Assembly: GCF_008039575.1 (NCBI RefSeq)
Contig: NZ_VDUY01000003.1
Location: 248,001 to 312,000 of the forward strand
DNA length: 64,000 nucleotides
DNA from: Zeimonas arvi
Lineage (GTDB): Bacteria; Pseudomonadota; Gammaproteobacteria; Burkholderiales; Burkholderiaceae_E
Reading direction: 5' to 3'
Positions 12,871 to 29,785 of this stretch are shown piece by piece. The position numbers were made by a program, and so were the translations under genes. The notes beneath the pieces are model-generated. The model made no database searches. It was given only the letters and a program-made list of their open reading frames with translations, and was not told the DNA's origin. Numbering within the stretch: position 1 is the stretch's first letter; the number at the start of each line of letters is the position of its first letter.

Positions 12871-13485
12871 TCACCCCGCGCGAGGCGGGCTTGCCGAGGG
12901 CAGCGCGGCGGGAATGTCCGACGGCCGGTCCACGTCGGCCACGCAACCCGGATCCTCGCAAGGCACCGTCTCGAGCAGATCGGCCCGGTCGCGCAGCAGC
13001 CGGGCGGCGCCGCTCTCGTCGCCGATCGCCAGCAGCGCCGGCCTCTGGTCCGCGGAAAACGCCACCGGGTGCCCCGGCCTGCCCTCGAAGACCGGTCGCG
13101 CGATCGCGGCGCCGGCCAGCAGCCGCGCCCGCACCGCCGCGTGGGTGCCGGGAGACACGAAGGGCATGTCGCCGAGCGCGACCAGCCAGCCGAGCCTGGG
13201 CCGTGTCTCGCTCACGCCGTGCCGCAGGCTCGCCCCCATGCCGAGCCCGGCGTCGGGGCAGGCGACGAGCCGCACCGGGAGCCCCGCCAGGATCGCCTCG
13301 GCGAGCTCGCACCGGCTGCCGCAGACCACGACGATCTCGTCGGCGATGCCGACCAGGGCCTCGCAGGCCGCGCGCAGCACCGGCCGGCCGTCGGCAAGCG
13401 GTGCGGCCAGCTTCCACGCATCGCCCGTCGGATCGAAGCGGCGCCCTTCGCCGGCAGCAAGGACCAGGGCACAGACATCGGACAT
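12871..13485 (-). CDS. MocA-like molybdenum cofactor nucleotidyltransferase
   Basis: This 204-residue protein has the NTP-transferase signature [15 protein letters not shown] at residues 7-21, then [16 protein letters not shown], and [18 protein letters not shown]. These match the MobA-like / MocA family. MocA transfers CMP to molybdopterin, giving the cytosine dinucleotide cofactor used by xanthine-oxidase-family hydroxylases. The gene follows the NicB-like molybdenum hydroxylase gene by 12 bp on the same strand, so the clear inference is that it makes or finishes the cofactor for NicB. No XdhC-type insertion chaperone is visible nearby. The choice between CTP and GTP specificity is inferred from context. 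Confidence 0.82.
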
Positions 13486-13497
13486 GGCGACTCCGGC

Positions 13498-16400
13498 TCA
13501 GTGGGACGAGGGCGCGGCGCGAATCCTCGCGGCGGCCTCGGCCAGCGCCGGCCAGGCCGGCTTGTCGGGGGCGAATCGCCTGCGCATCCAGGCCGCGAGT
13601 TCGGCGACCTGGACATCGTCGAGGCTCCCGGCGAAGGCCGGCATGTGGCCGATCGCCGGGGTGGCCGGCTCGCGTATGCCCTCGAGGATCGTGCGCACCA
13701 GATTGTCGGGGCGGTCGCCGTGCAGGCTCGCGGCGAGCGCGAGCGGGATGTTCCGGCCGGTCTCCACCGGCGCGTCACCGTCGTGGTGACACGCGCCGCA
13801 GGCGCGCTCGAACATCCGCTGCGCGGACCCGACGAGCGTCGCCGACTGCGCGCGCGCCCGCTCGATCGCGGCGCGGGCGGCCGCCTCGGCCTGCCCCGCA
13901 TCGGCCTGCGTGGAGAACGATGCGAGGTAGTGCGCGATCGCGCGGACGTCGGCGTCGGGCAACTGCGAGAGCTCGCGGACCACCGGCCCCATCGGCCCGT
14001 TGGCCGCCCCATGCCGCATGCTCAGGCCGGTTCGCAGATAGTCGTAGAGATCGCCCTCGGTCCATGGCACCGGCGCGCGGCTCGCCGCGGTGAGCGCCGG
14101 CGCCTCCCAGCCGTCGACCATCGCGCCCGCCAGCCAGGCCTCGCCGCGCCGCTCGGCGCCGGCCGCATTGCGCGGCGTGTGGCAGGCGCCGCAGTGGCCG
14201 AGGCCGTTGACCAGGTACTCGCCGCGGTTCCACTGCGCGCTGCGCGAGGGATCGGGCGAAACCGGCCCGGGCTCGAGGTACAGCGCGTTCCACACCGCCA
14301 TCAGCGGCCGCACGCCGAACGGAAAGGCCAGCTTCGACTCGGGCACCTCGGCGCGCACCGCCGGCTGAGACATCAGGTACGCGTAGAGCGCGGTCAGGTC
14401 GTCGTCGGTGACCCGGGTGAAGGCGGTGTACGGAAAAGCCGGGAACAGCCGATGGCCGTCGCGCGAGATCCCTTCGCGCATCGCGCGCTGGAACGCGGAA
14501 AACGACCAGTTGCCGATCCCGGTCTCGGGATCGGGCGTGAGATTGGTGGCGTAGACGACGCCGAAGGGCGTGTCGATCGCCCGGCCGCCAGCGTTCGGCG
14601 CGCCGCCGGGCGCGGTGTGGCAGACCACGCAGTCGCCGGCCGCCGCAAGTTGCCGGCCGCGCTCGATGGTCGGGGCGGTCCAGATCGACGGATCGGGTCG
14701 CGTGACCGGCGCGATCGCGGGCTTCCATCCGAAGGCCGCACCGCCCAGCGCGACCAGCCCGGCGGCCAGCGCACCTGCCCTCGCCCACCAGCGCCGGCGC
14801 GGCTTCGGCGGCTCGGCCGGCTCCGGCGGCGGCGGGTTGAGCGCCGCGCGCACCACCTCCGGCGTGAAAGGAGGCTTGCGAAAACGCACGCCGGTGGCGT
14901 CGAAGATCGCGTTGGCGATCGCCGCCGTCCCCGGCACCGACGAGGATTCGCCTGCGCCCTGCGGCGGCTGGTCCGGCCGCGGCATCATCATCACCTCGAT
15001 GACCGGCACCTCGCGAAAGCTCAGGATCGGGTAGCTGCCCCACTCGCGGGCCGCCACCGTGTTCGTGGCCGGGTCGGTGCGCACCTGCTCCTTCAGCGCG
15101 CGGCTGGTCGTCTGCACCACGTTGCCGTGGATCTGGTGCTTCACGCCGGCCGGGTTGATCATCAGCCCCGCGTCGTGGCCCACCACCACCCGGCTGACGT
15201 GGACCTCGCCGGTGATCCGATTGACCTCGACGTCGGCCACCCAGGCCGCCCAGGCCGCGCCGTAGCCGGGAAAGCGGCTGTGGACGTAGCGCGCCCAGGC
15301 GAAGCCCTGGCCCTTCAGGAGGTCGCCCTCGGCCGCCCGCTGCATCGGCTGCGTGTGAGCGATCCAGCCGGCACGCTCGGCCGTCGCGCGGATCAGTTCG
15401 GCGGCGCGCGGGTCCTCGAGATGGCGCAGCCGGTACTCCACCGGATCGACGCCGGCGGCGCTGGCCGCCTCGTCGATCCAGGATTCGTGCGCGAACGAAT
15501 TCGGCAGGGCCGACACCCCGCGCAGCCACGACGCGCGCAGGATCGGCGCCATGTCGTCGATCGACACGCGCAGGTGCGGATAGCGGTAGGGGGGCACCGA
15601 GGTGCGATCGCCCATCTCGTAGGCGACCGGCTCGGGCGGCACCGCACCGGTCAGCAGCAGCGCCAGCGTGACCGCGCCGTTGGACGGATAGGCGGTCCTG
15701 AAGTCGTAGGCGATCACCCTGCCGTCCGCGTCGAGGCCGCCCGACACGTCCATCAGTTGCGCCGCACCCTTGGGCTCCCACAGGTGCTCCTGCTCGCGGG
15801 TCAGCTGCACGCGCACCGGCCGGCCCACGGCCTTCGACAGCAGCGCCGCATCGGCGGCCACGTCGTCGGCGCAGTTGCGGCCGTAACAGCCCGAGGCCTC
15901 CATCCGGATCAGGTCGATCGCAGTCTCGGGCAGGCCGGTGAGCTTCGCGAGGTCGGCGCGCAGCGCGTGCGGGTACTGCGTGCCGGCCCAGACCGCGAGC
16001 CGATCGCCGCGCCAGTCGGCCAGCGCACAGGACGGGCCGATCGACGCGTGCATCTGGTAGGGCCAGACGTAGGTGCGCGCGAGCGTCGTGGCGGCGCCCG
16101 CCAGGGCTGCATCGACGTCGCCCTGTTCGATCGCCACGCGGCGCTTCGACGGGTTGTCGCGGATCGCCTGCTCGAGGTCGGAGAGCTGCGGCAGCGCCGG
16201 CCACGGCTTCCAGGAGACCTTCAGCTCGCGCATCGCGCGCTCGGCCTGATCCTCGCGCTCGGCGACCACGCCCACGAAGTCGCGGATCACGACCACCGCG
16301 ACGACGCCGGGGATGCGCGCGATCGACGCCTCGTCGACCGATTCGAGCGAATGGCCGATGAAGGGCCCGTGGTCGGCACCCGACCAGGGCGGCCGCACGA

Positions 16401-17082
16401 CCCGCCCGTGCAGCATGCCGGGCACGCGCATGTCGTGCACGAAGACCGTCTCGCCGGTCGCCTTGGCGGGGATGTCGACGCGCGGCACCGAGCGGCCGAC
16501 CACCCGGTACTGGTCCGGCGTCTTGAGCGCCACGTCGGCCGAGAGCATCAGCTCGACGTGATGCCCGGCGACCAGCCCCGCGTAGGCGACACACCGGGCC
16601 GGATCGTCGGTCGAACGGACCATCCCGGCCTCGACCTGCAGCGCGCCGGCCGGCACGCCCAGCCGGGCGGCGGCCTGCTCGAGCAGCCAGGCCCGGGCCT
16701 GGGCGGCTGCGTTGCGCAAGGGCGCTGCGTGGATCTGGATCGAGGCGCTGGCGATCGTCGCCCCCTGGTTGGGCGCGCGCGTGGTGTCGCCCAGCACCAT
16801 CTCGACGCTTTCGAAGGCCACGTCGAGTTCATCGGCCGCGATCTGGGCCAGCGCGGTGCGGATGCCGGTGCCCAGGTCGACGTGGCCGTTCAGCGCGGTG
16901 ACGCTGCCGTCGTCCCAGACGGCGAGCAGGATCTCGGGGCCTTCGGCGGGGTTGCCGGGGACGGCCGGCGGCTGCCCGGGCGCGGGCGGAGGCGGCGGCG
17001 GCGGATCACGCAGCACCAGCAGTACGCCGCTCGCGTTGCGGAAGTCCGCGCGGGTCAGCGCGCTCGCGGCCCGTCGGGTCAT
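13498..17082 (-). CDS. nicB: NicB-type nicotinate dehydrogenase, molybdopterin and tri-haem cytochrome c subunit
   Basis: The product is 1194 residues, near the length of Pseudomonas putida NicB, the large subunit of the two-component nicotinate hydroxylase that makes 6-hydroxynicotinate. Residues about 1-745 form the molybdopterin-binding aldehyde-oxidase-like region (WDDGSVTALNGHVDLGTGIRT, GETVFVHDMRVPGM, GVKHQIHGNVVQTTSRAL, GAGESSSVPGTAAIANAI, the last carrying the conserved active-site Glu). A hydrophobic segment near residues 758-780 (ARAGALAAGLVALGGAAFGW) may anchor the protein. Three haem-attachment CxxCH motifs follow at residues 818, 964 and 1095. A Pro-rich run near residue 45 is unusual. 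The ATG at 17082 overlaps the nicA stop (ATGA). Other members of the family act on isoquinoline or aldehydes, so substrate identity rests on the locus. Confidence 0.82.
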   Translation of the reverse strand: MTRRAASALTRADFRNASGVLLVLRDPPPPPPPAPGQPPAVPGNPAEGPEILLAVWDDGSVTALNGHVDLGTGIRTALAQIAADELDVAFESVEMVLGDTTRAPNQGATIASASIQIHAAPLRNAAAQARAWLLEQAAARLGVPAGALQVEAGMVRSTDDPARCVAYAGLVAGHHVELMLSADVALKTPDQYRVVGRSVPRVDIPAKATGETVFVHDMRVPGMLHGRVVRPPWSGADHGPFIGHSLESVDEASIARIPGVVAVVVIRDFVGVVAEREDQAERAMRELKVSWKPWPALPQLSDLEQAIRDNPSKRRVAIEQGDVDAALAGAATTLARTYVWPYQMHASIGPSCALADWRGDRLAVWAGTQYPHALRADLAKLTGLPETAIDLIRMEASGCYGRNCADDVAADAALLSKAVGRPVRVQLTREQEHLWEPKGAAQLMDVSGGLDADGRVIAYDFRTAYPSNGAVTLALLLTGAVPPEPVAYEMGDRTSVPPYRYPHLRVSIDDMAPILRASWLRGVSALPNSFAHESWIDEAASAAGVDPVEYRLRHLEDPRAAELIRATAERAGWIAHTQPMQRAAEGDLLKGQGFAWARYVHSRFPGYGAAWAAWVADVEVNRITGEVHVSRVVVGHDAGLMINPAGVKHQIHGNVVQTTSRALKEQVRTDPATNTVAAREWGSYPILSFREVPVIEVMMMPRPDQPPQGAGESSSVPGTAAIANAIFDATGVRFRKPPFTPEVVRAALNPPPPEPAEPPKPRRRWWARAGALAAGLVALGGAAFGWKPAIAPVTRPDPSIWTAPTIERGRQLAAAGDCVVCHTAPGGAPNAGGRAIDTPFGVVYATNLTPDPETGIGNWSFSAFQRAMREGISRDGHRLFPAFPYTAFTRVTDDDLTALYAYLMSQPAVRAEVPESKLAFPFGVRPLMAVWNALYLEPGPVSPDPSRSAQWNRGEYLVNGLGHCGACHTPRNAAGAERRGEAWLAGAMVDGWEAPALTAASRAPVPWTEGDLYDYLRTGLSMRHGAANGPMGPVVRELSQLPDADVRAIAHYLASFSTQADAGQAEAAARAAIERARAQSATLVGSAQRMFERACGACHHDGDAPVETGRNIPLALAASLHGDRPDNLVRTILEGIREPATPAIGHMPAFAGSLDDVQVAELAAWMRRRFAPDKPAWPALAEAAARIRAAPSSH

Positions 17083-17570
17083 TGCCGGGCCTCCGCGGCC
17101 ATCCGCTCGGCCGCGAGCCGCACCGCCTCGAGGATCTCGAGGTGCGTGCCGCAGCGGCACAGGTTGTGCGACAGCGCGTCGCGCACCTGCGCCTCGGTGG
17201 GCCGGGGCTGGCGGGAAAGGAGCGCCACGGTGCTCATGATCATCCCGTTCAGGCAGTAGCCGCACTGGGCGGCCTGGGCATCGACGAAGGCCTTCTGGAC
17301 CGGGTGCATCGCGTCGCGGCTGCCCAGCCCTTCGAGGGTGACCACGCGGCGCCCCGCGACCGCACCGACCGGGATCACGCAGGCGCGTGCCACCTTCCCG
17401 TCGAGGAGCACCGTGCAGGCGCCGCACTGCCCGAGCCCGCAGCCGTACTTCGGTCCGTTCAGGCCGAGGTCGTTGCGCAGCACGCCGAGCAGCGGCGCAT
17501 CGGCCGGCACCCGCAGACGGTGCGGCCGGCCGTTGACGGTGAACTCGATCGGGTCGCCCTCGGGCTGCAT
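17079..17570 (-). CDS. nicA: NicA-type [2Fe-2S] small subunit of nicotinate dehydrogenase
   Basis: This 163-residue protein has the two [2Fe-2S] sites of molybdenum hydroxylase small subunits: a plant-type site (YGCGLGQCGACTVLLDG) near residues 40-56 and a second in CGYCLNGMIM with LCRCGTHLEI near the C-terminus. It would pass electrons from the molybdenum centre of NicB toward its c-type haems. The frame is open further upstream, but the ATG at 17570 gives the family N-terminus (EFTVNGRPHRLRVPADAPLL) and lies 2 bases after the stop of the upstream ABC ATPase gene. The stop overlaps the nicB start. The pair nicA-nicB matches the P. putida arrangement. Confidence 0.85.
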   Translation of the reverse strand: MQPEGDPIEFTVNGRPHRLRVPADAPLLGVLRNDLGLNGPKYGCGLGQCGACTVLLDGKVARACVIPVGAVAGRRVVTLEGLGSRDAMHPVQKAFVDAQAAQCGYCLNGMIMSTVALLSRQPRPTEAQVRDALSHNLCRCGTHLEILEAVRLAAERMAAEARQ

Positions 17571-17572
17571 CG

Positions 17573-18334
17573 CTAGACCGACAGGTAGGCCCGGCGGACC
17601 TCCTCGTTGTCGGCGAGCTCCTGCATCGTGGCCCGGTAGCGGATCTGTCCCTTCTCCAGCACGTAGGCGCGATCGGACACCAGCTCGGCGAAGTGCATGT
17701 TCTGCTCCGAGAGCAGGATGCTGACGCCCTGCGCCTTGAGCTCCAGGATCATCTGCGCCATCTGCTCGACGATGACCGGGGCCACGCCTTCCGAGGGCTC
17801 GTCGAGCAGCACCAGGTAAGGGTTGCCCATCAGCGTGCGCGCAACCGTGAGCATCTGCTGCTCGCCGCCGCTCATGCGGCCGCCCGGGCGGTCGGGCATC
17901 TCGCCCAGGTTCGGAAACAGGCGGAAGAGTCTTTCGGGCGTCCACGACGGGGCCCGCGCCCCGTCGGGCCAGCTGCGCGGCGGCTGGCGCCCGACCTCGA
18001 GATTCTCGGTGACGGTCAGGTCGGTGAAGATCCGGCGGTCCTCCGGCACGAAACCAAGCCCCGACGAGGCGACCTGGTGCGGCTCGCTGGCCGAGATGTC
18101 GCGCCCCATGAAGCGCAGGCGCCCTCGCCGTCGCGGCACCATGCCCATGACGGCCTTCAGCGTGGTGGACTTGCCCGCGCCGTTGCGGCCCATCAGCGCC
18201 ACGACCTCGCCGCGCCTCACCTCGAGCGACACGTCGAACAGGATCTGCGCCGCGCCATACCAGGCGGACAGTGCCTCGACCTCGAGCAGCGGCGCGGCTG
18301 CGACGGCGGCCTGCGGCGAGAGCTGCGCGCTCAT
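17573..18334 (-). CDS. ABC transporter ATPase, LivF type
   Basis: This is a 253-residue ATP-binding protein of the branched-chain amino acid (HAAT) importer family, LivF branch. It has Walker A GRNGAGKST, the ABC signature MSGGEQQ, and Walker B YLVLLDEPSEG followed by a switch His region. It lies immediately 3' of the LivG-type gene with a 4-base overlap and immediately 5' of nicA. It is one of two ATPases for the importer encoded with the nicotinate genes. The likely cargo is nicotinate or a related pyridine carboxylate, which is an inference from the locus and not visible in this protein. Confidence 0.9.
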   Translation of the reverse strand: MSAQLSPQAAVAAAPLLEVEALSAWYGAAQILFDVSLEVRRGEVVALMGRNGAGKSTTLKAVMGMVPRRRGRLRFMGRDISASEPHQVASSGLGFVPEDRRIFTDLTVTENLEVGRQPPRSWPDGARAPSWTPERLFRLFPNLGEMPDRPGGRMSGGEQQMLTVARTLMGNPYLVLLDEPSEGVAPVIVEQMAQMILELKAQGVSILLSEQNMHFAELVSDRAYVLEKGQIRYRATMQELADNEEVRRAYLSV

Positions 18335-19140
18335 TGCAGCGCCTCCCCCAGGTCGGCGGCGCGTTGCGCGCCTGCGCGCTTCTTCTCGAAGGTCTTGCCC
18401 GAGCCGAAGTAGACCTCCTGGACCTTGGGATCGTCCCGGATTTCCGCCGGCCGCCCCTCGGCGATCAGCCGGCCGCGAGCCAGCACGATCATCCGGTCCG
18501 CATAGGCGAAGACCACGTCCATGCTGTGCTCGGTGAAGAGCACCGCCATGTTCCGCTCCACCACCAGCCGCTTGGTCAGTGCCATCAGCTCGTTGCGCTC
18601 CTTGGGCGCCATGCCGGCGGTCGGCTCGTCCATCAGCAGCAGCTTCGGCGAATTGGCCATTGCGATCGCAAGCTCCACGCGCTTGACGTCACCGTAGGCG
18701 AGCACGCTGCACGGCCGGTCGGCCTGCGCGGCCATGCCGACCTGGTCGAGCAGTTCGACGGCCTCGGCGCGCCGGTGCCTGGCCGCGCGCGTCCACATCG
18801 ACCAGAGCCGCGCATCGGCCGACAGCAGCGCCATCTGCACGTTCTCGACAGCGGTCAGCGAGGAGAAGGTCTCGGCGATCTGGAAAGTGCGGCCGACGCC
18901 CAGCCGCCAGATCTCGCGCGGCCTCATGCCGATCAGCTCGGTGCCTTCGAGCCGGATCGAGCCCGAGTCGGCGCGCAACTGTCCGTTGACCATGTTGAAG
19001 GTCGTCGACTTGCCCGCGCCGTTGGGACCGATCAGCGCCAGCAGCTCGCCGCGGGCGAGCTCGAAGTCGATCCCGTCGACCGCGCGCACGCCGCCGAAGG
19101 ACTTCCCCAGCCCGGTGACTGTCAGGAGCTTCGTCGTCAT
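18331..19140 (-). CDS. ABC transporter ATPase, LivG type
   Basis: This 269-residue protein is the second ATPase of the importer, LivG branch. It has Walker A GPNGAGKST, a divergent signature VLAYGDVKRVELAIAMA where most members have LSYGEQR, and Walker B KLLLMDEPTAGMAPKE. The LivG-branch feature MAPKE after the Walker B Glu is present. The gene overlaps its LivF partner by 4 bases and follows the fused permease gene by 4 bases. The variant signature is worth noting but is shared by several HAAT ATPases. Confidence 0.9.
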   Translation of the reverse strand: MTTKLLTVTGLGKSFGGVRAVDGIDFELARGELLALIGPNGAGKSTTFNMVNGQLRADSGSIRLEGTELIGMRPREIWRLGVGRTFQIAETFSSLTAVENVQMALLSADARLWSMWTRAARHRRAEAVELLDQVGMAAQADRPCSVLAYGDVKRVELAIAMANSPKLLLMDEPTAGMAPKERNELMALTKRLVVERNMAVLFTEHSMDVVFAYADRMIVLARGRLIAEGRPAEIRDDPKVQEVYFGSGKTFEKKRAGAQRAADLGEALQ

Positions 19141-19144
19141 CGGC

Positions 19145-21034
19145 TCAGGCCTCCGCGCCCTGGCGGCGCGCCAGCAGTTGCTTCGCGAAGCCGGCGATGC
19201 CCTGCGGGAACAGCAGCACCAGCAGGAGGATGATCGCGCCCAGCATCGCCCGCCAGTAGTCGGTGCTGCGCGCCACCGTGTCGTGCAGCCAGGTGAAGGT
19301 GACCGCGCCGACGATGGGCCCGGAGAGCGTCTGCAGCCCGCCCAGCAGCACCATGACCAGTCCGTCGATCGACTTGGCCACGTGCAGGCCCTCCGGCGAG
19401 ATGCTGCCCTTGGAGAAGGCGAACAGCGCGCCGGCGAGCCCCGCGAACAGCCCGGCGACCACGAAGGCGATCCACTGCACCCGCTTGACGTCGATGCCGA
19501 TCGCGTCGGCGCGAGTCGGCGAATCGCGGCCTGCGCGCATCGCGTAGCCGAAGGGCGAGAACAGCATCCGGCGAAGCAGCAGCACGCCCAGCACCACCAG
19601 CGCCAGCGTCAGGTAGTAGTAGTTGATCTTGTCGGACAGCCAGGGGGCCGGCCACACCCCGGTCAGGCCGTTGCTGCCGCCGGTGAAGTCGTCCCACTGA
19701 TAGACGATCGCCCAGGCGATCTGCGCGAAGGCCAAGGTGAGCATGGCCAGGTAGACGCCCGACAGCCGCACGCTGAACCAGCCGAACACCAGCGCGCCCA
19801 GCGCCGCCACCAGCGGCGCGAGCAGCAGGGTGATCTCCATCGGAACGCCCAGCCAGCGCACCAGCAGCGCGGCCCCGTAGGCGCCCAGGCCGAAGTAGGC
19901 GGCATGACCGAAGGAGTGCAGCCCGGCCGGGCCCATGATGAAGTGCAGGCTGGTCGCGAACAGCACGGCCACCAGCAGGTCGATCGCCAGCACGGTCAGG
20001 TAGGGCGAGGCCTTGGTGAGCAACGGAAACACGACCAGCCCGGCCAGCGCCGCGAGGCCCGCGTAGGCGACGGGCCGGCCCGCGGCGCGCAGCGGCGCCT
20101 CGATGGATCCGGCGTGCCGGCTCGCGCCCTGCGGTTTCCCGAGCAGGCCCCAGGGCCGCCAGACGAGCACCACCGCCATGACCAGGAACTCCACGACCAG
20201 CGTGAGCTTGGAGAAGGAAATCTTCAGGCCGAAGAGGTCGACCACCCCGAGCCAGATGCAGATCGCCTTCAGCTCGGCGATGATCAGCGCGGCCACGTAG
20301 GCGCCCGGGATCGAGCCCATGCCGCCGACCACCACCACCACGAAGGCGGCGCCGATCGTGTGCAGGTCCATTTCCAGGTTGGCCGGCTCGCGCGGCAACT
20401 GCAGCGCACCACCGAGGCCGGCCAGCAACGCGCCGAGCGCGAACACCGCGGTGAACAGCCAGGCCTGGTTCACGCCCAGCGCGCCGACCATTTCCCGATC
20501 CTGCGTGGCGGCGCGCACCAGCGTGCCCCAGCGGGTCTTCGTGAGCAGCAGCCACAGCAGGCCGAGCACCACCGGCCCGACCACGATCAGGAACAGGTCG
20601 TACTCGGGGAACTGACGGCCCAGGATGGTGACCGATCCGGCCAGCCCGGGCGCGCGCGGCCCGAGAAGCTCTTCCGGGCCCCACAGCCACAGCACCGCGT
20701 CCTTGACCACCAGCACCAGCGCGAAGGTGGCAAGCAGCTGGAACAGTTCGGGCGCGCGGTAGATCCGGCGCAGCAGCAGGATCTCGACGATCGCGCCGAG
20801 CAGCCCCACCGCCAGCGCCGAGAGCAGCAGCGCCGGCCAGAATCCGAGGCCTGCGCCCATCCGCTCGACCAGCGACCACGCGATGTAGACGCCGACCATG
20901 TAGAAGGAGCCGTGCGCGAAGTTGACGATGCGGGTGACGCCGAAGATCAGCGACAGGCCGGCGGCGACCAGGAACAGCGAGGACGCGCCGGCCAGCCCGT
21001 TCAGCAGCTGGACGATGAAGCCCGAGAAGCTCAT
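19145..21034 (-). CDS. Fused LivH-LivM permease of a HAAT-family ABC importer
   Basis: This single 629-residue protein joins two permease domains that are usually separate. Residues about 1-300 are LivH-like (FIVQLLNGLAGASSLFLVAAGLSLIFGVTRIVNFAHGSFYMVGVY as consecutive landmarks, later GGMGSIPGAYVAALIIAELKA). Residues about 325-625 are LivM-like (LATSLHFIMGPAGLHSFGHAAYFGLGAYGAA in pieces, then MLTLAFAQIAWAIVYQWDDFTGG and SPFGYAMRAGRDSPTRADAIG). Each half has about eight to ten hydrophobic helices. The ATG at 21034 overlaps the stop of the binding-protein gene. Fused LivHM proteins occur in several proteobacterial importers, so this is uncommon but not unique. Confidence 0.9.
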   Translation of the reverse strand: MSFSGFIVQLLNGLAGASSLFLVAAGLSLIFGVTRIVNFAHGSFYMVGVYIAWSLVERMGAGLGFWPALLLSALAVGLLGAIVEILLLRRIYRAPELFQLLATFALVLVVKDAVLWLWGPEELLGPRAPGLAGSVTILGRQFPEYDLFLIVVGPVVLGLLWLLLTKTRWGTLVRAATQDREMVGALGVNQAWLFTAVFALGALLAGLGGALQLPREPANLEMDLHTIGAAFVVVVVGGMGSIPGAYVAALIIAELKAICIWLGVVDLFGLKISFSKLTLVVEFLVMAVVLVWRPWGLLGKPQGASRHAGSIEAPLRAAGRPVAYAGLAALAGLVVFPLLTKASPYLTVLAIDLLVAVLFATSLHFIMGPAGLHSFGHAAYFGLGAYGAALLVRWLGVPMEITLLLAPLVAALGALVFGWFSVRLSGVYLAMLTLAFAQIAWAIVYQWDDFTGGSNGLTGVWPAPWLSDKINYYYLTLALVVLGVLLLRRMLFSPFGYAMRAGRDSPTRADAIGIDVKRVQWIAFVVAGLFAGLAGALFAFSKGSISPEGLHVAKSIDGLVMVLLGGLQTLSGPIVGAVTFTWLHDTVARSTDYWRAMLGAIILLLVLLFPQGIAGFAKQLLARRQGAEA

Positions 21035-22236: not shown

Positions 22237-22287
22237 GGTCCTGCTCTCCCTGGTTGTATTCGAAAGTCCGGTTCCGGCGGGCGCGCT

Positions 22288-22872
22288 TCAGCGCAGACCG
22301 TCGGCGCCCTGGATCTCGCTCACCTGCAGCCCGCCGACCCTGGCCAGCGGCCGGCCGCCGTCGGTGACCGCGACGGCCACCACGATCTCGCTCGCGCGCG
22401 GGGCATCGCCCACGCGCGCCTCGATCGCGTCGAAGTGGCTCCTGACGTAGGCGGCGTCCTTGTGTCCGAGCGGCACGTCGATCGCGGTGCCCATGCCGCC
22501 GCGCTTCTTGGCCGAGGGCACCAGCGCCGCGCCCTTCTCGACTGCCTTGCGCAGCGGCGCGCCGAGCTTCGGATGCAGGATGGCCGCGGCATGCTCGAGC
22601 TCGCCCGCCTCGCCGACGATCGCCGCCTTGCCGTAGCTGTGCGCCTGCCCTGGCTCGATGCCCAGGGCCTTGACGCACTTCTCGCCCAGCAAGCCGCCGA
22701 GCTCTTCGCCGATCGCGATCAGCTCGTCGAGGTTCTCGACGTAGCGGCCGGCGCAGGGGTTCTCGATCACCGCGATCGCCACGGCCCTGCGTACCGGCGG
22801 CTCGACCGCCCTGCCCATCTCGATGCGCGTCTCGTCGACCTGCACGACGAGCTTCCTGATCCTTGCCGACAT
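22288..22872 (-). CDS. AA_synth (DUF1185) family protein, copy 1
   Basis: This 194-residue protein belongs to the AA_synth family (formerly DUF1185), for which structures exist but whose reaction is, to my knowledge, not established. Landmarks are RRAVAIAVIENPCAGRYVENL, SYGKAAIVGEAGELEHAAAI, LVPSAKKRGGMGTAIDVPLGHKDAAYVRSH (read as two pieces) and FDAIEARVGDAPRASEIVV. I place the start at the ATG at 22872, because this aligns with the second copy. It sits 50 bp after copy 2 and 51 bp before the importer receptor gene. The two copies are clearly paralogous but well diverged, so they may form a heteromer or have split roles. Confidence 0.82.
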   Translation of the reverse strand: MSARIRKLVVQVDETRIEMGRAVEPPVRRAVAIAVIENPCAGRYVENLDELIAIGEELGGLLGEKCVKALGIEPGQAHSYGKAAIVGEAGELEHAAAILHPKLGAPLRKAVEKGAALVPSAKKRGGMGTAIDVPLGHKDAAYVRSHFDAIEARVGDAPRASEIVVAVAVTDGGRPLARVGGLQVSEIQGADGLR

Positions 22873-22922
22873 TGGCTCTCTCCTGGTCGCGTTCTCTGGC
22901 TGGCGTTGTCCGTCCCGCAACG

Positions 22923-23579
22923 CTAGCGTTGCCCGTCCCACTTGGCGATCTCGGAGGCCCTGAGCCCCCCCACCCGCGCGTGCACCCGCGCGCCGGCGCT
23001 CATGACCAGCACCAGCGCCAGCTCGTCGGGCAGCGGCGCGCCGGGCACCCGCACCTCGATGGCGTCGAAGTGACTGCGCACGTAGGACGCGTTGATGTGC
23101 GTGAGCGGCACGTCGAGCGTGGCGCCGGGCGGGCCGACCTTCTTCGTGGAGGGCACGATTGCCAGCGCGTTGCCGGGCTGCCCGCCCGCATCGCCTCCCC
23201 TGCCCTGCGCGTAGGCGGCGGCGTTGCCCTTCCAGCCGAGCAGCTCGCGCATCGCGTAGCCGCCGGGGACGTGCCACAAGGCGCCATGCTCGAGTTCGCC
23301 GTCGGCGCCGACGACCGCGCCCTTGCCGTAGCTCTCGATGCGCTCCACCGGCTCGTCCATCGCCTCGAGCAGGCGATGCGCCATCTGCACGCCCACCGGC
23401 TGCAAGGCGTCCATCATCGGCAGGATGTCGGGCTCGTAGCGCCCCGCGAACGGGTTGCGCAGCACCGCAACGATCGCACCGCGCCGCTGCGGGCGCTCCG
23501 GCGGCGGCCCGAACTCGTGGAAGATCTCTTCCACCTGCGTGAATACCCGACGAATCTCGATCATTCCCGACTCACTCAT
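22923..23579 (-). CDS. AA_synth (DUF1185) family protein, copy 2
   Basis: This is the second AA_synth protein, 218 residues. It shares with copy 1 the segments RRGAIVAVLRNPFAGRYEPDI, SYGKGAVVGADGELEHGALW, IVPSTKKVGPPGATLDVPL and SYVRSHFDAIEVRVPGAPLP. It has extra residues around 110-130 (LLGWKGNAAAYAQGRGG). The start is the ATG at 23579 or possibly an in-frame ATG at 23564. The conserved Lys-rich SxKK segment and the SHFDAIE motif in both copies are candidate functional sites. Tandem placement between a UPF0280 gene and the importer ties both to the nicotinate operon. No reaction can be assigned. Confidence 0.82.
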   Translation of the reverse strand: MSESGMIEIRRVFTQVEEIFHEFGPPPERPQRRGAIVAVLRNPFAGRYEPDILPMMDALQPVGVQMAHRLLEAMDEPVERIESYGKGAVVGADGELEHGALWHVPGGYAMRELLGWKGNAAAYAQGRGGDAGGQPGNALAIVPSTKKVGPPGATLDVPLTHINASYVRSHFDAIEVRVPGAPLPDELALVLVMSAGARVHARVGGLRASEIAKWDGQR

Positions 23580-23606
23580 TGCCCCGTTCCGATTCTCGCT
23601 GCCCGC

Positions 23607-24566
23607 TCAGGCGCACTCAAGCGGGATTCTGCCTGCCGACGCCGCGGCGGCCGGCGTCGCGACGCCCACGGCCCGGCCCTGGCAGACCAGGATGGCAGCC
23701 TCCAGCAGGCCTCGATCGTGCAACTCGCGTGCCCGCAAGGCGCCCTGCTCGAGGGCGCGGGCCACCCGCTGCGGCGCGAGCGCCGGCACGTCCACCACGA
23801 CGGGCAGCTTGCCCAGATCCGTGTCGTCGCGCAGCTCGCAAGCCGGGCGGCGGACGATGCCGGGATCGTCGACATCGACCGCGTTGGCGACGATCGTGGC
23901 AGCCGCGTCGGCCTGCGCCGCAGTGCGCGCCAGCACGGTCACGCTGTCGGCGATGCCCAGCGAGAAGCTGCGCCCGCGCCAGCCGCTGGTCGCGATCCCG
24001 CGCACCGGCATGGCCGAATCGATCTCGAACTTGCCGTCGAGCGCCAGGCCGGCGCGATCGCCGGGCCGCCCGCCCGCGACCGGGGCGAAGCGCGCCAGGT
24101 CGGCGAACAGGCCGACCCGGACCGAGGCCCCCTGGGCCAGGTACAGCGCGATGTCGCCGCCGTTGTTGACCCAGGCGCGCTCGATGCCGGGGCGCCGGTA
24201 GGCCGCGACGATCTCGTCCGCCACGGAGCCAGCCACCGCCGCCATCGGCGTGATGTATTCGCTGCTGAGCGGCAGGCAGGCGCGCCACATCCGCTGCGCG
24301 ACCGGCCCGGCCAGCGGGCAATCCACGCGCGGCCGCACCGCGGCGGAGGCCTCCCGATGGCCGTCCTGCCGGGGCCGGCCGATCGGCGCGCGCAGCAACC
24401 CTAGCTCGCCGACGAGCTCGCCGAGCACCGTTGCGAATCGCGCCCAGGCGGCCTCGTGGGCGGCGGCCACCACCGACGACACCCCCTCGGCGCCGATCAC
24501 CAAGTCGATCGGACCGTGCGCGAAATGCCAGCGATTGCCGGGCAGCGGCGCGCGTTGCGCGGTCAT
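23607..24566 (-). CDS. UPF0280 family protein (ApbE-like)
   Basis: This 319-residue protein resembles the UPF0280 family, distant relatives of ApbE flavin transferases. Visible landmarks are RWHFAHGPIDLVIGAEG, PMAAVAGSVADEIVAAYR, the WVNNGGDIALYL motif that resembles the ApbE nucleotide-binding region, and RGIATSGWRGRSFSLGIADS. The open frame runs far upstream through the reductase gene in another phase, so I chose the ATG at 24566, just after the reductase stop. If it does transfer or bind flavin, a natural partner would be the adjacent 6-hydroxynicotinate reductase, but this is inference. The true function is unknown. Confidence 0.75.
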   Translation of the reverse strand: MTAQRAPLPGNRWHFAHGPIDLVIGAEGVSSVVAAAHEAAWARFATVLGELVGELGLLRAPIGRPRQDGHREASAAVRPRVDCPLAGPVAQRMWRACLPLSSEYITPMAAVAGSVADEIVAAYRRPGIERAWVNNGGDIALYLAQGASVRVGLFADLARFAPVAGGRPGDRAGLALDGKFEIDSAMPVRGIATSGWRGRSFSLGIADSVTVLARTAAQADAAATIVANAVDVDDPGIVRRPACELRDDTDLGKLPVVVDVPALAPQRVARALEQGALRARELHDRGLLEAAILVCQGRAVGVATPAAAASAGRIPLECA

Positions 24567-24610
24567 CGGCAGCTTCCGGTCATCGGCCGTCTCCAGGCAT
24601 CGCCTTTCCC

Positions 24611-26260
24611 TCAGCCCAGCATCGGCGCGTGGCCGATCGGCCAGGGATTGGACGCATCGGCCGCGAGCCAGCGGCGGGCGGTCGGCGCCCCTTCGTCGTG
24701 CCAGGCGCCGGTGCGCAGCGCCTGCTCGAGCGAGCGCACCTGCTCGACATGGCCGCCCAGCGCCGAGAAGTCGTCGGCGCGCATCGTGAACTCGATGGGC
24801 GCGACGAGCGCGGGCGTGGGCACGGTGCCGAAGGCGTTCTCGGGCATCCGCATCACGTCGACCATCACCGTGATGCCGCCGCCCGGCCAGACGTAGGCCG
24901 GCGCGCCACCGCAGGTCACGTTGACCAGGCTCTGCTTGATCGTGCGGGTCAGCAGCACCGGGTTCTCGGTGACGCCGGCGCGCAGGCTGCCGCCCGCGCC
25001 GCCGAGGAAGAGGACCGAGGTCAGCGAGGGCTCGCAGTTCTCGCCGATGCGCTCGACGATGCGCCGCACGGCCTCGGGCATCTCGGCCTCGCGCGGCGCG
25101 AGCGACGCGTCGAGCTCGTACCAGGCCGAATGCTCGCCGGTGGTGGAGACCATCAGCAGGCGCTGGCCCGGCCAGGCGAGTTTCGGGTCCCAGCCTTCGA
25201 CGATGCTCATCGGATCGGCGATGTCGGTGCCGCCCCAGCCGGTGCCGGGATTGGCCACCTGGAAATAGCGGCCCGGCGTGGACTTCCGGCCGCGGATCTT
25301 CAGGCCCGAAGGCCGCATGTCCAGGCAGCGCCCGGCCTGGTGCTCGGTGAGCACGCCGGTGATGTGGTCGTCGACCACCACGACCTCGTCGACCCGCCCG
25401 AAGAACTGCTTGGCGAAGATGCCGATCGTGGCCGAGCCGCAGCCGACCCGCATGCGCTGCTCCTCGACGCCGTTGACCACCGGCGGCCGGCCCGCCTGCA
25501 CCAGCAGCTGCGCGCCCCCGTCGATCGTGAGCTCGACCGGCTGGCGGTTGCCGAGCGACTGCATCATCTCGACGGTGACCCGGCCTTCCTTCTTGCTGCC
25601 GCCGGTCAGGTGGTGCACGCCCCCCAGCGAGAGCATCTGCGAACCGTACTCGGCTGTGGTGACGTGGCCGACCACCTCGCCGCGGCAGCGCACGTTCGCC
25701 TGCTCGGGCCCCAGGTAGCGGTCGGTGTCGATCTTCACCTTCAGGCTGCAGTAGCTGAAGATGCCCTCGGTGACGACGGTGACCATGTCGACGCCGTCGG
25801 CCTGGGAGGCCACGATGAAGGGCGCCGGCTTGTAGTCGGGATAGGTGGTCGACGAGCCGATGCCGGTCACGAAGACCTCGTTGGCGCGCAGCAGGTCGCC
25901 GTCCCAATCGGGGGCATCCGGCGCGATGCCGCCCGCATCCGGCGCGACGCCCTCGGGGCCTTCGGACCCGGCCCCGGCGGGGAGCGCGGGCCGGCCGGCG
26001 AAGCGGACCAGCTTCGCGTCCGCCTGCTGCGCGGTGCGCCTGAGCATGACGACCGGGTCGACGCGCACCAGCGTGCCGCCCGAATTCGCGTAGCGATCGC
26101 AGGCGCCGACCCGCCCCTCGGCGATCTGGCACAGCACCGGGCAGGCATTGCACTCGATCTTGCCGACGGCCATGCGCTCGTTGCGCGGCCTCGACTTTTC
26201 GAGGACCTGCGGAATCGGCTCGACCTCGGGCAAGCCGTCGGTCTTCGTGTGCTCGGTCAT
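24611..26260 (-). CDS. hnr: 6-hydroxynicotinate reductase homologue
   Basis: This 549-residue protein resembles 6-hydroxynicotinate reductase of Eubacterium barkeri, which uses reduced ferredoxin to convert 6-hydroxynicotinate to 1,4,5,6-tetrahydro-6-oxonicotinate. Four clustered Cys at residues 37, 40, 44 and 54 (ECNACPVLCQIAEGRVGACD) are candidate Fe-S ligands. Other landmarks are FVTGIGSSTTYPDYKPAPFI, GSQMLSLGGVHHLTGGSKKEG, AGRCLDMRPSGLKIRGRKS and TCGGAPAYVWPGGGITVMVD. It is the first gene of the long minus-strand operon and reads away from the divergent promoter. Its presence with an enamidase gene supports the reductive route. No experimental specificity can be read from sequence. Confidence 0.82.
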   Translation of the reverse strand: MTEHTKTDGLPEVEPIPQVLEKSRPRNERMAVGKIECNACPVLCQIAEGRVGACDRYANSGGTLVRVDPVVMLRRTAQQADAKLVRFAGRPALPAGAGSEGPEGVAPDAGGIAPDAPDWDGDLLRANEVFVTGIGSSTTYPDYKPAPFIVASQADGVDMVTVVTEGIFSYCSLKVKIDTDRYLGPEQANVRCRGEVVGHVTTAEYGSQMLSLGGVHHLTGGSKKEGRVTVEMMQSLGNRQPVELTIDGGAQLLVQAGRPPVVNGVEEQRMRVGCGSATIGIFAKQFFGRVDEVVVVDDHITGVLTEHQAGRCLDMRPSGLKIRGRKSTPGRYFQVANPGTGWGGTDIADPMSIVEGWDPKLAWPGQRLLMVSTTGEHSAWYELDASLAPREAEMPEAVRRIVERIGENCEPSLTSVLFLGGAGGSLRAGVTENPVLLTRTIKQSLVNVTCGGAPAYVWPGGGITVMVDVMRMPENAFGTVPTPALVAPIEFTMRADDFSALGGHVEQVRSLEQALRTGAWHDEGAPTARRWLAADASNPWPIGHAPMLG

Positions 26261-26447
26261 CGCTTGCGGATCCTCCCGCCCTGTTGCGCCAGACGCCGGA
26301 TTTTATGTAGGATTCACTTAACGTTGATGTTGCAAACGCTACATCGGCGGAAAGTTAAACACGAAAGCCCGCGCGCGCGCAACGGCTTTTTCGAACCCCC
26401 GCCCGGGCCCCGAGAGCGACGGCCCGCGGCACGATGGAGCCGCCCCG
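26261..26447. promoter_or_regulatory. Divergent promoter region between the two nicotinate operons, with a 40-bp inverted repeat
   Basis: This 187-bp spacer separates the reductase operon (minus) from the ferredoxin reductase-tetR-enamidase operon (plus). The part from 26300 to 26360 is much more AT-rich than its surroundings. An inverted repeat ATGTAG (26305-26310) and CTACAT (26339-26344) brackets 28 bases that contain AACGTT and TTGCAA palindromes. The TTGCAA at 26330-26335 could act as a -35 on either strand, but no strong -10 is seen. The plus gene has GGAG at 26436-26439 before its ATG. A natural candidate ligand for the repeat is the TetR regulator encoded downstream. Binding is inference. 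Confidence 0.55.
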
Positions 26448-27221
26448 ATGGCCGCCTTCGACGAGGAACGCGTGCTCAGCGTCCACCACTGGACCGACCG
26501 CCTGTTCACCTTCACCACCACCCGCAGCCAGTCGCTGCGCTTCCGCAACGGGCACTTCACGATGATCGGCCTGCGGGTGGACGGCAAGCCTCTGCTGCGC
26601 GCCTACAGCATCGTGAGCCCGAACTACGAGGACCACCTCGAGTTCCTCAGCATCAAGGTGCCCGACGGCCCGCTGACCTCGCGGCTGCAGCACATCCAGC
26701 CGGGCGACTCGGTCATCGTCGGCCACAAGCCCACCGGCACCCTGGTCATCGACTACCTGCTGCCCGGCAAGCGGCTCTACCTGCTTTCGACCGGCACCGG
26801 GCTGGCGCCCTTCATGAGCATCATCCGCGACCCGGACACCTACGAGAAGTTCGACACCGTGATCCTGGTGCACGGCGTGCGCCAGGTCGACGAGCTGGCC
26901 TATCACGACATGCTGGTCGAGCAGCTGCCGCACCACGAGTTCATCGGCGAAATGGTCTCGAGCAAGCTGCGTTACTACCCCACGGTCACCCGGGAACAGT
27001 ACCGGCGCATGGGCCGGATCACCGAGCTGATCGAGTCCGGCAAGCTGTTCCAGGACCTCGGCGTGCCGCCGCTGGACCCGGCCGCTGACCGGGTGATGAT
27101 CTGCGGCAGCCCCGGCATGCTGCGCGATCTCAAGCAGATGCTCGAGGCACACGGCTTCAAGGAGGGCAATACGACCACACCGGGCGATTTCGTGATCGAA
27201 CGGGCCTTCGCCGAGCAGTAA
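26448..27221 (+). CDS. Ferredoxin--NADP+ reductase (Fpr type)
   Basis: This 257-residue flavoprotein belongs to the bacterial ferredoxin-NADP reductase family. It has the FAD motif RAYSIVSPNYE near residues 52-62, the NAD(P) region LYLLSTGTGLAPFMSIIRD near residues 106-124, ILVHGVRQVDELAY, and RVMICGSPGMLRDLKQML near the C-terminus. Length is normal. It starts at an ATG preceded by GGAG eight bases upstream and ends 2 bases before tetR. Placement divergent from the 6-hydroxynicotinate reductase gene suggests that it delivers electrons from NADPH through ferredoxin to that reductase. A general oxidative-stress role, as for fpr in other bacteria, is the alternative. Confidence 0.9.
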   Translation: MAAFDEERVLSVHHWTDRLFTFTTTRSQSLRFRNGHFTMIGLRVDGKPLLRAYSIVSPNYEDHLEFLSIKVPDGPLTSRLQHIQPGDSVIVGHKPTGTLVIDYLLPGKRLYLLSTGTGLAPFMSIIRDPDTYEKFDTVILVHGVRQVDELAYHDMLVEQLPHHEFIGEMVSSKLRYYPTVTREQYRRMGRITELIESGKLFQDLGVPPLDPAADRVMICGSPGMLRDLKQMLEAHGFKEGNTTTPGDFVIERAFAEQ

Positions 27222-27223
27222 GC

Positions 27224-27961
27224 ATGGCCAGGCCGGCCGCCATGCCGAAGAAGCGCGCCGCCCCGGGCGGCGCGCAACGCCCGCGCAGCCGCGAGCTGGC
27301 AGCCCAGGCCACCCGCGAGAACCTCCTGCGCGCCGCGATCAAGGTGTTCGCGCGCAACGGCTTCGCCGGCGGCCGGATCGAGCAGATCTCGAAGGCTGCA
27401 CGATCGTACGACCGGATGATCTACTACTACTTCGGCAGCAAGGAAGGGCTGTTCATCGCGGTCATCGAGGAGATCTACCGGCGCTTCAACGAGGCGGAGT
27501 CCGAGCTCGCCCTCGATCTCGACGCGCCGACCGACTCGCTGGTGGCGATCGTGCGGTTCATCTGGTCCTACTACAACCGGCACCCCGAGTTCATCACGCT
27601 GCTGAACTCGGAGAACCTGCATCGGGGCAAGCACATCTCCAAGTCCCGGCGGCCGGGCGAGTATTCATCGCCAGCGCTGTCGCTGCTCGAGCGGGTCCTG
27701 CACAGCGGCGCCCGGCAGGGCGTGTTCCGCAGCGAACTGCGCGCCCGCGACGTCTACCTTCTGATCGCCTCGCTGGGCTACTTCTACCTGTCCAACCGGC
27801 ACACGCTGTCCACCTTCCTCGGCGAGAACCTCGAGGCTCCGGAGGCGCTCGAGCACTGGGAGCGATTCGTGATCGACTCTGTGCTGCGCGTGGTCGCCGC
27901 CGGGCCGCCGCTCCCTCCCCTGGCCTCCAGCACCCGATCGCACAACCGAAGCGGAGATTGA
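27224..27961 (+). CDS. TetR-family transcriptional regulator
   Basis: This 245-residue regulator has an N-terminal helix-turn-helix domain, with TRENLLRAAIKVFARNGFAG, then RIEQISKAARSYDRMIYYYF and GSKEGLFIAVIEEIY, all typical of TetR proteins. A basic Pro/Ala-rich stretch of about 25 residues precedes the domain. The C-terminal half carries an aromatic-rich ligand domain (VRFIWSYYNRHPEFITLLNSE). It is sandwiched between the ferredoxin reductase and enamidase genes, and so is the likely local regulator of the nicotinate locus. Known nicotinate regulators in other bacteria belong to several families, so the ligand is not predictable. Confidence 0.9.
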   Translation: MARPAAMPKKRAAPGGAQRPRSRELAAQATRENLLRAAIKVFARNGFAGGRIEQISKAARSYDRMIYYYFGSKEGLFIAVIEEIYRRFNEAESELALDLDAPTDSLVAIVRFIWSYYNRHPEFITLLNSENLHRGKHISKSRRPGEYSSPALSLLERVLHSGARQGVFRSELRARDVYLLIASLGYFYLSNRHTLSTFLGENLEAPEALEHWERFVIDSVLRVVAAGPPLPPLASSTRSHNRSGD

Positions 27962-27963
27962 CC

Positions 27964-29163
27964 ATGGCAGAAGCCACAAGCACCGGCGCGTCCGGCAAGG
28001 TCGTCATCAGGAACATCGGCCTGATGCTGTCCGGCGACATCGACCGCCCGATCCTAGATGCCGACACCATCGTCGTGAACGACGGGATCATCGTCGCGGC
28101 GGGGCGCGAGGCCGACTGCGACACCGGGCAGCCGGACACGCTGATCGACGCACGCGGCACCTGCGTCTGCCCCGGCCTGATCGACAGCCACGTGCACCCG
28201 GTGTTCGGCGACTGGACGCCCCGCCAGGGCCAGATCGGCTGGATCGATTCGACCATGAACGGCGGCGTGACCACGATGATCTCGGCCGGCGAAGTCCATC
28301 TGCCCGGCCGTCCCAAGGACATCGTGGGACTGAAGGCGCTGGCGATCACCGCCCAGCGGGCCTTCGACAACTTCCGCCCCGGCGGGGTCAAGGTGCTGGC
28401 CGGGGCGCCGGTCATCGAGAAGGGCATGACCGAGCAGGATTTCAAGGACATGGCCGAGGCCGGGGTCAAGCTGCTCGGCGAAGTGGGCCTGGGCTCGGTC
28501 AAGGCGGGCGACGAGGCGAAGCAGATGGTGGCCTGGGCGCGCAAGCACGGCATCCAGAGCACGATCCACACCGGCGGCCCCTCGATCCCGGGCTCGGGCC
28601 TGATCGACAAGGACGTGGTGCTCGAGGCCGACGCCGACGTCATCGGCCACATCAACGGCGGCCACACCTCGCTGCCCGAGGCGCACGTCTGCGAACTCTG
28701 CGAGAAGTCCTCGCGGGCCATCGAGATCGTGCACAACGGCAACGAGAAGGTCGCCATCGCCGCCGCGCAGATGGCGCTGCAGCTCAAGTGCCCGCACCGG
28801 GTGATCCTGGGCACCGACGGCCCGGCCGGCTCGGGCGTGCAGCCGCTGGGCATCCTGCGGATGGTGGCGCTGCTCTCCAGCATGGCCGGCATCCCGGCCG
28901 AGCTCGTGTTCTGCTTCGCCACCGGGAACACCGCGCGCATCCGCGACCTGAACTGCGGGCTGATCGAACCCGGCCGGGCGGCGGACTTCGTGTTCATGGA
29001 CCGCGCCCAGCACACCGCCGGGAGGACCCTGCTCGAGAGCGTGCAGCTGGGGGACATCCCGGGGGTGGGCATGGTGATGATCGACGGCATCGTGCGCTGC
29101 GGCCGCAGCCGGAACACGCCGCCCGCGACTGAGGTGCCGGTCGTGGTGGCGCCCGCGCACTGA
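27964..29163 (+). CDS. ena: Enamidase homologue (amidohydrolase superfamily)
   Basis: This 399-residue protein matches the enamidase of Eubacterium barkeri, which opens the ring of 1,4,5,6-tetrahydro-6-oxonicotinate to give 2-formylglutarate and ammonia. It has the amidohydrolase metal motif HVH (residues 76-78, in GLIDSHVHP), a candidate bridging Lys region near GVKLLGEVGLGSVKAG, STIHTGGPSIPGSG and GHINGGHTSLPEAHV with metal His, and LGTDGPAGSGVQPLG carrying the catalytic Asp. The frame opens at a TTG at 27958, but the ATG at 27964 is preferred. The tetR stop lies 2 bases upstream. Other amidohydrolases share the fold, but the locus supports this assignment. Confidence 0.85.
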   Translation: MAEATSTGASGKVVIRNIGLMLSGDIDRPILDADTIVVNDGIIVAAGREADCDTGQPDTLIDARGTCVCPGLIDSHVHPVFGDWTPRQGQIGWIDSTMNGGVTTMISAGEVHLPGRPKDIVGLKALAITAQRAFDNFRPGGVKVLAGAPVIEKGMTEQDFKDMAEAGVKLLGEVGLGSVKAGDEAKQMVAWARKHGIQSTIHTGGPSIPGSGLIDKDVVLEADADVIGHINGGHTSLPEAHVCELCEKSSRAIEIVHNGNEKVAIAAAQMALQLKCPHRVILGTDGPAGSGVQPLGILRMVALLSSMAGIPAELVFCFATGNTARIRDLNCGLIEPGRAADFVFMDRAQHTAGRTLLESVQLGDIPGVGMVMIDGIVRCGRSRNTPPATEVPVVVAPAH

Positions 29164-29767: not shown

Positions 29768-29785
29768 CAACCGGGAACTCCGACC

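Follow-up and report, generated by a model that had tools for sequence, protein, structure and literature searches.

A stretch of 64,000 nucleotides from the 3.83-Mb genome of Zeimonas arvi (contig NZ_VDUY01000003.1, positions 248,001 to 312,000; hereafter referred to as the window) carries a gene cluster for the predicted aerobic breakdown of nicotinate by reduction of its ring. The genes form two divergent sets on either side of a 187-bp gap (26261–26447), as an initial annotation of the same DNA had proposed. The leftward set, on the minus strand, begins with Hnr, 6-hydroxynicotinate reductase (24611–26260; 549 amino acids (aa)), which is followed by a UPF0280 protein (23607–24566; NF003322, 370 bits), a distant relative of ApbE that we propose as an Hnr maturation factor. 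This set extends through two PF06684 proteins, an ATP-binding cassette (ABC) transporter and the two subunits of nicotinate dehydrogenase, NicA and NicB, to a MocA/MobA-like nucleotidyltransferase. The rightward set, on the plus strand, comprises an Fpr-type flavoprotein, a TetR-family regulator and an enamidase (27958–29163; 401 aa). All of the nicotinate genes named in the initial annotation were recovered in place; that account omitted UPF0280, the PF06684 pair and a nicotinate phosphoribosyltransferase (NAPRTase) just outside its coordinates. Clusters that join an aerobic hydroxylase to reductive ring opening have already been described and are common in Burkholderiales. What is new in the loci compared here is Hnr as the core of a modular family, and its near-perfect pairing with UPF0280.

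Hnr is 56–75% identical, over 88–100% of the query, to proteins in 26 plasmid records, 17 of which are annotated as 6-hydroxynicotinate reductase. These records were used instead of the Eubacterium barkeri protein, to which the SG-6C relative of Hnr is 42% identical according to the available text of a 2012 study (PMC3511419). The window protein contains a CxxCxxxCx9C motif and, judged from family alignments A1 and A2, invariant C171, C274 and C409, giving four clustered and three invariant cysteines. The E. barkeri enzyme reportedly carries a covalent flavin together with Fe–S clusters. A sequence search found no solved protein close to Hnr, and PF08669 (GcvT C-terminal) is matched weakly in 12 of 12 members of alignment A1 (best 4.7e-4), which is a hint only. 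Viral contigs yielded two pattern matches, neither of which is a relative. At one related locus (L257, G414:C1:2969814-2971261), Hnr is spread over two reading frames, reflecting either a frameshift or a natural split.

NicA (17079–17570, minus strand; 163 aa) is a small, separate 2×[2Fe-2S] subunit with eight cysteines at residues 44, 49, 52, 64, 103, 106, 138 and 140, and matches NCBIfam Fe–S subunit models below their cut-offs. NicB (13498–17082, minus strand; 1,194 aa) is the molybdopterin subunit and combines MoCoBD and cytochrome c domains, with GAGES at residue 709 and three c-type haem sites (CxxCH) at residues 818, 964 and 1095. It is 61.2, 58.2 and 58.9% identical, over 94–98% of its length, to NicB from three nicX-containing plasmid clusters (in Pseudomonas BYT-5, Azospirillum oryzae and Pantoea dispersa), which served as the reference in place of the Pseudomonas putida protein itself. 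Beside those NicB genes lie NicX, a flavin adenine dinucleotide (FAD) monooxygenase, an alpha/beta hydrolase, an Asp/Glu racemase family protein, an amidohydrolase or isochorismatase, a major facilitator superfamily (MFS) transporter and MarR, a layout that we take to be that of the P. putida nic cluster. In a tree, the window NicB groups with NicB of clusters carrying 2,5-dihydroxypyridine dioxygenase, and the other molybdenum-cofactor proteins included, none of them a named isoquinoline dehydrogenase, are more distant; the initial assignment of NicB to the nicotinate type is supported. Four further MoCoBD_1 proteins in the source genome lack CxxCH within the stretches read. These comparisons support NicAB as a P. 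putida-type nicotinate dehydrogenase, with hydroxylation predicted at C6.

The enamidase matches 2vun, which we take to be the E. barkeri enamidase, over nearly its full length (residues 13–392; 371 bits, 7e-110), and retains the motifs HVH, EVGLG, HTGG, GHIN and GTDGP at what are presumably the HxH/E/H/H/D positions of the metal site. NicX had no match in the source genome at 1e-10, and was matched in 6 of the 31 genomes searched, at 34–39% identity. Glutaryl-CoA genes, which the initial annotation had suggested seeking elsewhere in the genome, are represented by a glutaryl-CoA dehydrogenase (E = 1.2e-226 to solved ones). The proposal that a NicAB-type hydroxylase here feeds a reductive ring opening is supported by the relationship of NicB to its nicX-cluster counterparts, the enamidase match, the lack of a NicX match and the presence of this dehydrogenase. 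Beyond the MocA-like protein, the nearest minus-strand gene detected encodes NAPRTase (11607–12782; PF04095, 230 bits), so that genes for NAD salvage and for nicotinate breakdown stand side by side in the window. Among all loci examined, NAPRTase also lies within the stretches of five others (L211, L047, L190, L188 and L247); of these, L211 carries a different type of hydroxylase and L247 a MarR in place of TetR. This neighbourhood supports nicotinate as the substrate, short of proof and with no background rate behind it.

The gene content supports a route from nicotinate through 6-hydroxynicotinate and tetrahydro-oxonicotinate to 2-formylglutarate and probably glutarate. Nicotinate would enter the cell by a Liv-type ABC importer, encoded on the minus strand by a periplasmic binding protein of the branched-chain amino acid type (21034–22236; PF13458, 257 bits), whose substrate, judging by its context, is probably nicotinate, a fused LivH–LivM type permease (19145–21034; 629 aa), an open reading frame whose homologue is the annotated ABC transporter permease of a related locus (L036), and LivG-type (18331–19140; PF00005 and PF12399) and LivF-type (17573–18334; PF00005) ATPases. 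NicAB would hydroxylate nicotinate at C6 and deliver the electrons to the respiratory chain by way of its c haems; its molybdenum cofactor is probably supplied by the MocA/MobA-like protein (12871–13485, minus strand; PF12804, 110 bits; TIGR03310, 87 bits, below cut-off). The ferredoxin–NADP reductase-like flavoprotein (26448–27221, plus strand; NF008178, 160 bits, below its cut-off of 390) would act as an NAD(P)H reductase that feeds Hnr, probably via ferredoxin. Hnr, with UPF0280 as its putative dedicated maturation partner, would convert 6-hydroxynicotinate to 1,4,5,6-tetrahydro-6-oxonicotinate, which the enamidase would hydrolyse to ammonia and 2-formylglutarate. The latter is probably converted to glutarate, which would lead to the glutaryl-CoA dehydrogenase of the genome.

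A scan of genome contigs yielded at least 595 stretches, of which 594 are Hnr relatives, and the best 80 of these were kept as loci. Hosts named among these 80 include Variovorax, Paraburkholderia, Polaromonas and Acidovorax, with some recorded as 'beta proteobacterium' or 'uncultured bacterium', and many of the stretches end at contig or locus borders. Within them, NicA scores above 150 bits in 63 loci and the enamidase is seen in 68, with both in view in 56, and Fpr, TetR and a PF06684 protein are found in 62, 71 and 78 loci, respectively. Because the same genes recur across these loci, a chance grouping is excluded. Gene order is closely alike in most of the 80 and differs in the Paraburkholderia loci, in L065, which has another hydroxylase, and in L067. 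The initial annotation had regarded the combined route as lacking a well-characterized gene set in Burkholderiales. The novelty that this implied does not stand, as the best 80 relatives show the arrangement to be common there, and the available text of the 2012 study describes a similar cluster in Azorhizobium and Bradyrhizobiaceae (PMC3511419).

A common set of 399 genomes from the order includes 30 with Hnr and 30 with UPF0280 (NF003322), and 29 are shared between the two. The single genome with Hnr but no UPF0280 (G126) is 78% complete, and G084 is the only one of the 369 genomes without Hnr to have UPF0280. In a wider sample of the phylum, UPF0280 was present in all 28 additional genomes with Hnr (28 of 28) and in none of 52 genomes without Hnr, the latter picked by hand along the genome list. 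In total, UPF0280 is carried by 57 of 58 genomes that have Hnr and by 1 of 421 examined genomes that lack it. UPF0280 is also present on all 26 Hnr-bearing plasmids; one extra plasmid (L218, Hydrogenophaga sp. BPS33) shows no Hnr match but carries UPF0280 as repeated orphan copies, each flanked by IS1071 elements and accompanied by a Rieske oxygenase gene. Among the best 80 Hnr loci, 79 contain UPF0280 (the exception is a 3-kb contig), and 78 have it in the same orientation as Hnr and at most 400 bp away. The two genes are non-adjacent in five of the shared genomes, 5–24 kb apart on one contig in three (G284, G118 and G342) and on separate contigs in two (G029 and G157).

The partners of Hnr other than UPF0280 vary. 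We compared 53 Hnr loci that were chosen rather than drawn at random (the window, 6 plasmid loci, 8 of the 80 genome loci and 38 further stretches (20 + 18)). NicAB occurs with an enamidase in 14 and with HyuAB-like proteins in 2, and a xanthine-dehydrogenase-type hydroxylase occurs with HyuAB-like proteins in 10 and with an enamidase in 6; no ring opener is in view in 3 further NicAB loci and 14 further xanthine-dehydrogenase-type loci, and HyuAB-like proteins stand without a hydroxylase in view in 4. Leaving out rows with nothing seen inside the stretch, the Hnr tree implies at least five changes of hydroxylase type (49 rows) and four of ring opener (36 rows). A single clade of NicAB-linked Hnr was rejected by an approximately unbiased (AU) test (p = 6.6e-94; selected rows, with a long L257). 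The NicB tree was built from the window, 14 of the 23 loci in L042–L121 that passed length and score filters, and 15 others; the reductive-route rows need two changes on it, and a single clade of reductive-route NicB was likewise rejected after four distant rows were dropped (p = 1e-54; selected rows, with a long outgroup and L222). Both AU tests reject a single origin of the NicAB–Hnr pairing. In the NicB tree, Neorhizobium and Pleomorphomonas group with the oxidative-cluster NicB of Agrobacterium and Roseomonas, whereas the window NicB groups with other Burkholderiales. One Pleomorphomonas plasmid bears both NicAB and Hnr, at a large distance from each other. An enamidase is present in 17 of the 31 genomes of the order with Hnr or UPF0280 (14 at ≥77% identity and 3 at 38–41%), and the ring openers therefore differ in an even draw too. 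By these comparisons, a modular family is built around Hnr, in which the hydroxylase (NicAB or xanthine-dehydrogenase type) and the ring opener (enamidase or HyuAB-like) have been swapped repeatedly while UPF0280 stayed constant.

Other proteins recur near Hnr. HyuAB-like proteins (hydantoinase/oxoprolinase or acetophenone-carboxylase-like), possible candidates for an ATP-dependent ring opener, are found with no enamidase seen in the stretch at L037, L038, L040, L041, L199–L201, L203, L205, L206, L244, L251, L253, L256, L257 and L259. A Rieske-type ring-hydroxylating oxygenase lies within the clusters L041, L204 and L206–L208, which suggests other substrates, perhaps N-methylated pyridines. 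Some alphaproteobacterial clusters also include a conserved hypothetical protein of about 460–490 aa that appears membrane-like by eye (L037, 6740–8203; L038, 16894–18267; L039, 8194–9603; L255, near 4139; L256, near 12440).

The evidence supports UPF0280 as a partner on which Hnr depends, in the simplest case a maturation factor acting through either flavin or sulfur chemistry. UPF0280 might be a divergent ApbE-type transferase that attaches flavin covalently to Hnr, a possibility that fits the near-obligate pairing and the covalent flavin reported for E. barkeri Hnr and that we regard as tentative. Profile comparison by hhalign relates UPF0280 to ApbE over 98 columns (92.5%, E = 4.8e-7; 0.1% for the PF06684 control), and 26 of 28 UPF0280 members match PF02424 (ApbE) with E values no higher than 1, the best being 4.8e-6. 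Among the UPF0280 genes met in the ApbE scan, that of G084 alone passes the PF02424 cut-off when its pieces are summed (27.9). Moreover, 13 of the 30 Hnr genomes of the order, the source genome included, have UPF0280 but no canonical ApbE over the cut-off; such an ApbE is, however, present in the other 17, and no typical ApbE acceptor motif was seen by eye in the Hnr alignment, for which no motif search was made. UPF0280 shares ATSG, NxGGD and AD..xT with the ApbE flavin transferases and, unlike them, has a gap opposite the HxxDPxTG loop in the profile alignment. Because this loop is missing and the window protein scores below the Pfam cut-off for PF02424 (6.6e-4; 19.7 bits versus 25.6), flavin transfer is no more than a candidate role. 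A sulfur or persulfide step on the Fe–S centres of Hnr, resembling the action of COG2122 in methanogens and Desulfovibrio, is a similarly doubtful alternative. COG2122, presumably the same family as UPF0280, would be its precedent, and the UPF0280 model also matches, below cut-off, in M. acetivorans and M. jannaschii; the four clustered and three invariant cysteines of Hnr are in keeping with such a step. Against it, the hosts are expected to have general Fe–S assembly of their own. The available text of a study on Desulfovibrio vulgaris bears on both possibilities: homocysteine synthesis there requires COG2122 and DUF39, with a role in persulfide formation proposed by others, whereas the homology of COG2122 to ApbE is distant and seemingly falls outside the flavin-binding region (PMC5764234). 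The chances are about even that UPF0280 is a dedicated, obligate cofactor-maturation enzyme of Hnr with a divergent ApbE fold, which would install a covalent flavin (or a sulfur species) without HxxDPxTG, and that Hnr and UPF0280 form a portable ring-reduction module combined by aerobes with varied hydroxylases and ring openers. A literature search thin on subscription papers, in which Hnr and UPF0280 were never queried jointly, found no paper under the name 'UPF0280'. The PF06684 'AA_synth' proteins, rather than UPF0280, could be the partners of Hnr or could catalyse a step on the reduced ring. The window encodes two, both on the minus strand and 41% identical to each other (22923–23579, Pfam 225 bits, related to 3byq and 2qtp by sequence and fold; and 22288–22872, 241 bits), and, with E below 0.001, 3byq and 2qtp are the sole solved structures that the PF06684 model hits. 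The family adopts a chorismate-mutase-like fold, and a part in amino-acid metabolism has been suggested in the available text of its description (PMC2954203). At least one member is present in the 78 of the best 80 loci mentioned above and in 26 of the 30 Hnr genomes of the order. Of the 51 genomes among the 399 that match PF06684, however, 25 lack Hnr, and four Hnr genomes have no match (G010, G103 and G271, 97–100% complete, and G126, 78%). As an obligate partner of Hnr, PF06684 is rejected by these counts, and we consider this alternative unlikely.

For the cluster as a whole, we hold it highly probable that the window encodes the complete upper pathway of aerobic nicotinate catabolism by ring reduction, with UPF0280 as the maturation partner of Hnr. 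Sequence places NicAB, Hnr, the enamidase, the transporter and the glutaryl-CoA dehydrogenase in their families, and from these assignments we infer the substrate, the electron path, the lower steps, the regulation and the role of UPF0280. Several points weigh against this interpretation, which for this organism is built from sequence. The steps past 2-formylglutarate have no assigned genes. Of the best 80 loci, 18 show no Fpr in view, the Paraburkholderia loci among them, and 12 show no enamidase; most of the latter are truncated, but in L063 and L115 the upstream flank is complete. The AlphaFold2 model of Hnr (54 rows) is poor, with a predicted local distance difference test score of 65, and Foldseek matched it to no solved fold under E 0.001; the missing ApbE loop and sub-cut-off PF02424 score of UPF0280 add to these points. 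Alternatively, the cluster might break down another N-heterocycle, such as a substituted pyridine or 6-chloronicotinate, with nicotinate not its natural substrate. Because Hnr sits with varied hydroxylases and ring openers in related loci, Rieske oxygenases among their neighbours, Hnr-type reductases need not all serve nicotinate. In the window, however, the hydroxylase is close to NicB, the ring opener is an enamidase and the nicotinate-using NAPRTase is adjacent, and we consider a different substrate very unlikely. Under the favoured nicotinate pathway, an aerobic front and an anaerobic-style back make up an established, widespread arrangement in Burkholderiales, rather than a curiosity of one genome, and its reductive core is modular. 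The uncharacterized UPF0280 family thereby gains a directly testable hypothesis as to how an unusual Fe–S flavoenzyme is made in air.

The gap between the divergent sets contains an operator-like inverted repeat, ATGTAG-(28)-CTACAT (26305–26344). In 50 Hnr–Fpr gaps (the window included; the loci are related and no shuffled control was used), ATGTAG arms recur at a spacing of 28 in 17 and CTACAT arms at a spacing of 9 in 18. The TetR-family regulator (27224–27961, plus strand; PF00440 and PF17938) may bind at 26305–26344, and would act on both gene sets from this shared region. The cluster is flanked by a LUD-domain protein (10892–11554, minus strand) and a protein with a polyhydroxybutyrate depolymerase C-terminal domain (29765–31063, plus strand), beyond which lies an FeS/4Fe-4S dicluster protein (31074–31784, plus strand), a conceivable electron carrier.

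The closest known systems are the nicotinate clusters of Azorhizobium and the Bradyrhizobiaceae. According to the available text of the 2012 study, Azorhizobium ORS571, Bradyrhizobium USDA110, R. palustris HaA2 and SG-6C share a conserved cluster (labels AZC_2804-2790 and blr3818-3830) in which the enzymes of the first three steps stand with an ABC transporter and two conserved unknown proteins; experiments in SG-6C showed the conversion of 6-chloronicotinate to 6-hydroxynicotinate, the reduced-ring step was deduced from the cluster and earlier Azorhizobium work, and nicotinate carbon in Azorhizobium enters the tricarboxylic acid cycle via glutarate (PMC3511419). The window likewise brings together a hydroxylase, Hnr, a ring opener, an ABC transporter and conserved unknown proteins, as in an Azorhizobium-type tetrahydro-oxonicotinate cluster, and shares with it an aerobic host and predicted ring reduction. 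As stand-ins for the published clusters we used L245–L247, from three 7–8-Mb genomes of one genus, which as far as the stretches reach all have NicAB, Hnr, UPF0280, PF06684, a Liv transporter and MarR, with the enamidase in two and Fpr in one. The window differs from them in having TetR rather than MarR, in its two PF06684 genes, and in the position of NicAB, which follows the transporter genes downstream on their strand. Its UPF0280 protein belongs to the same family as COG2122 of methanogens and Desulfovibrio, but its association is with Hnr rather than with homocysteine synthesis. With the P. putida nic cluster, the window shares the NicA/NicB-type hydroxylase (58–61% identity to plasmid relatives of that layout), but no NicX was found in its genome, and the ring would be reduced and hydrolysed rather than oxygenated. 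With nicotinate fermentation in E. barkeri it shares Hnr and the enamidase, whereas NicAB takes the place of the four-subunit NdhFSLM dehydrogenase. E. barkeri proceeds by methyleneglutarate chemistry; the route in the window is predicted to run via glutaryl-CoA instead.

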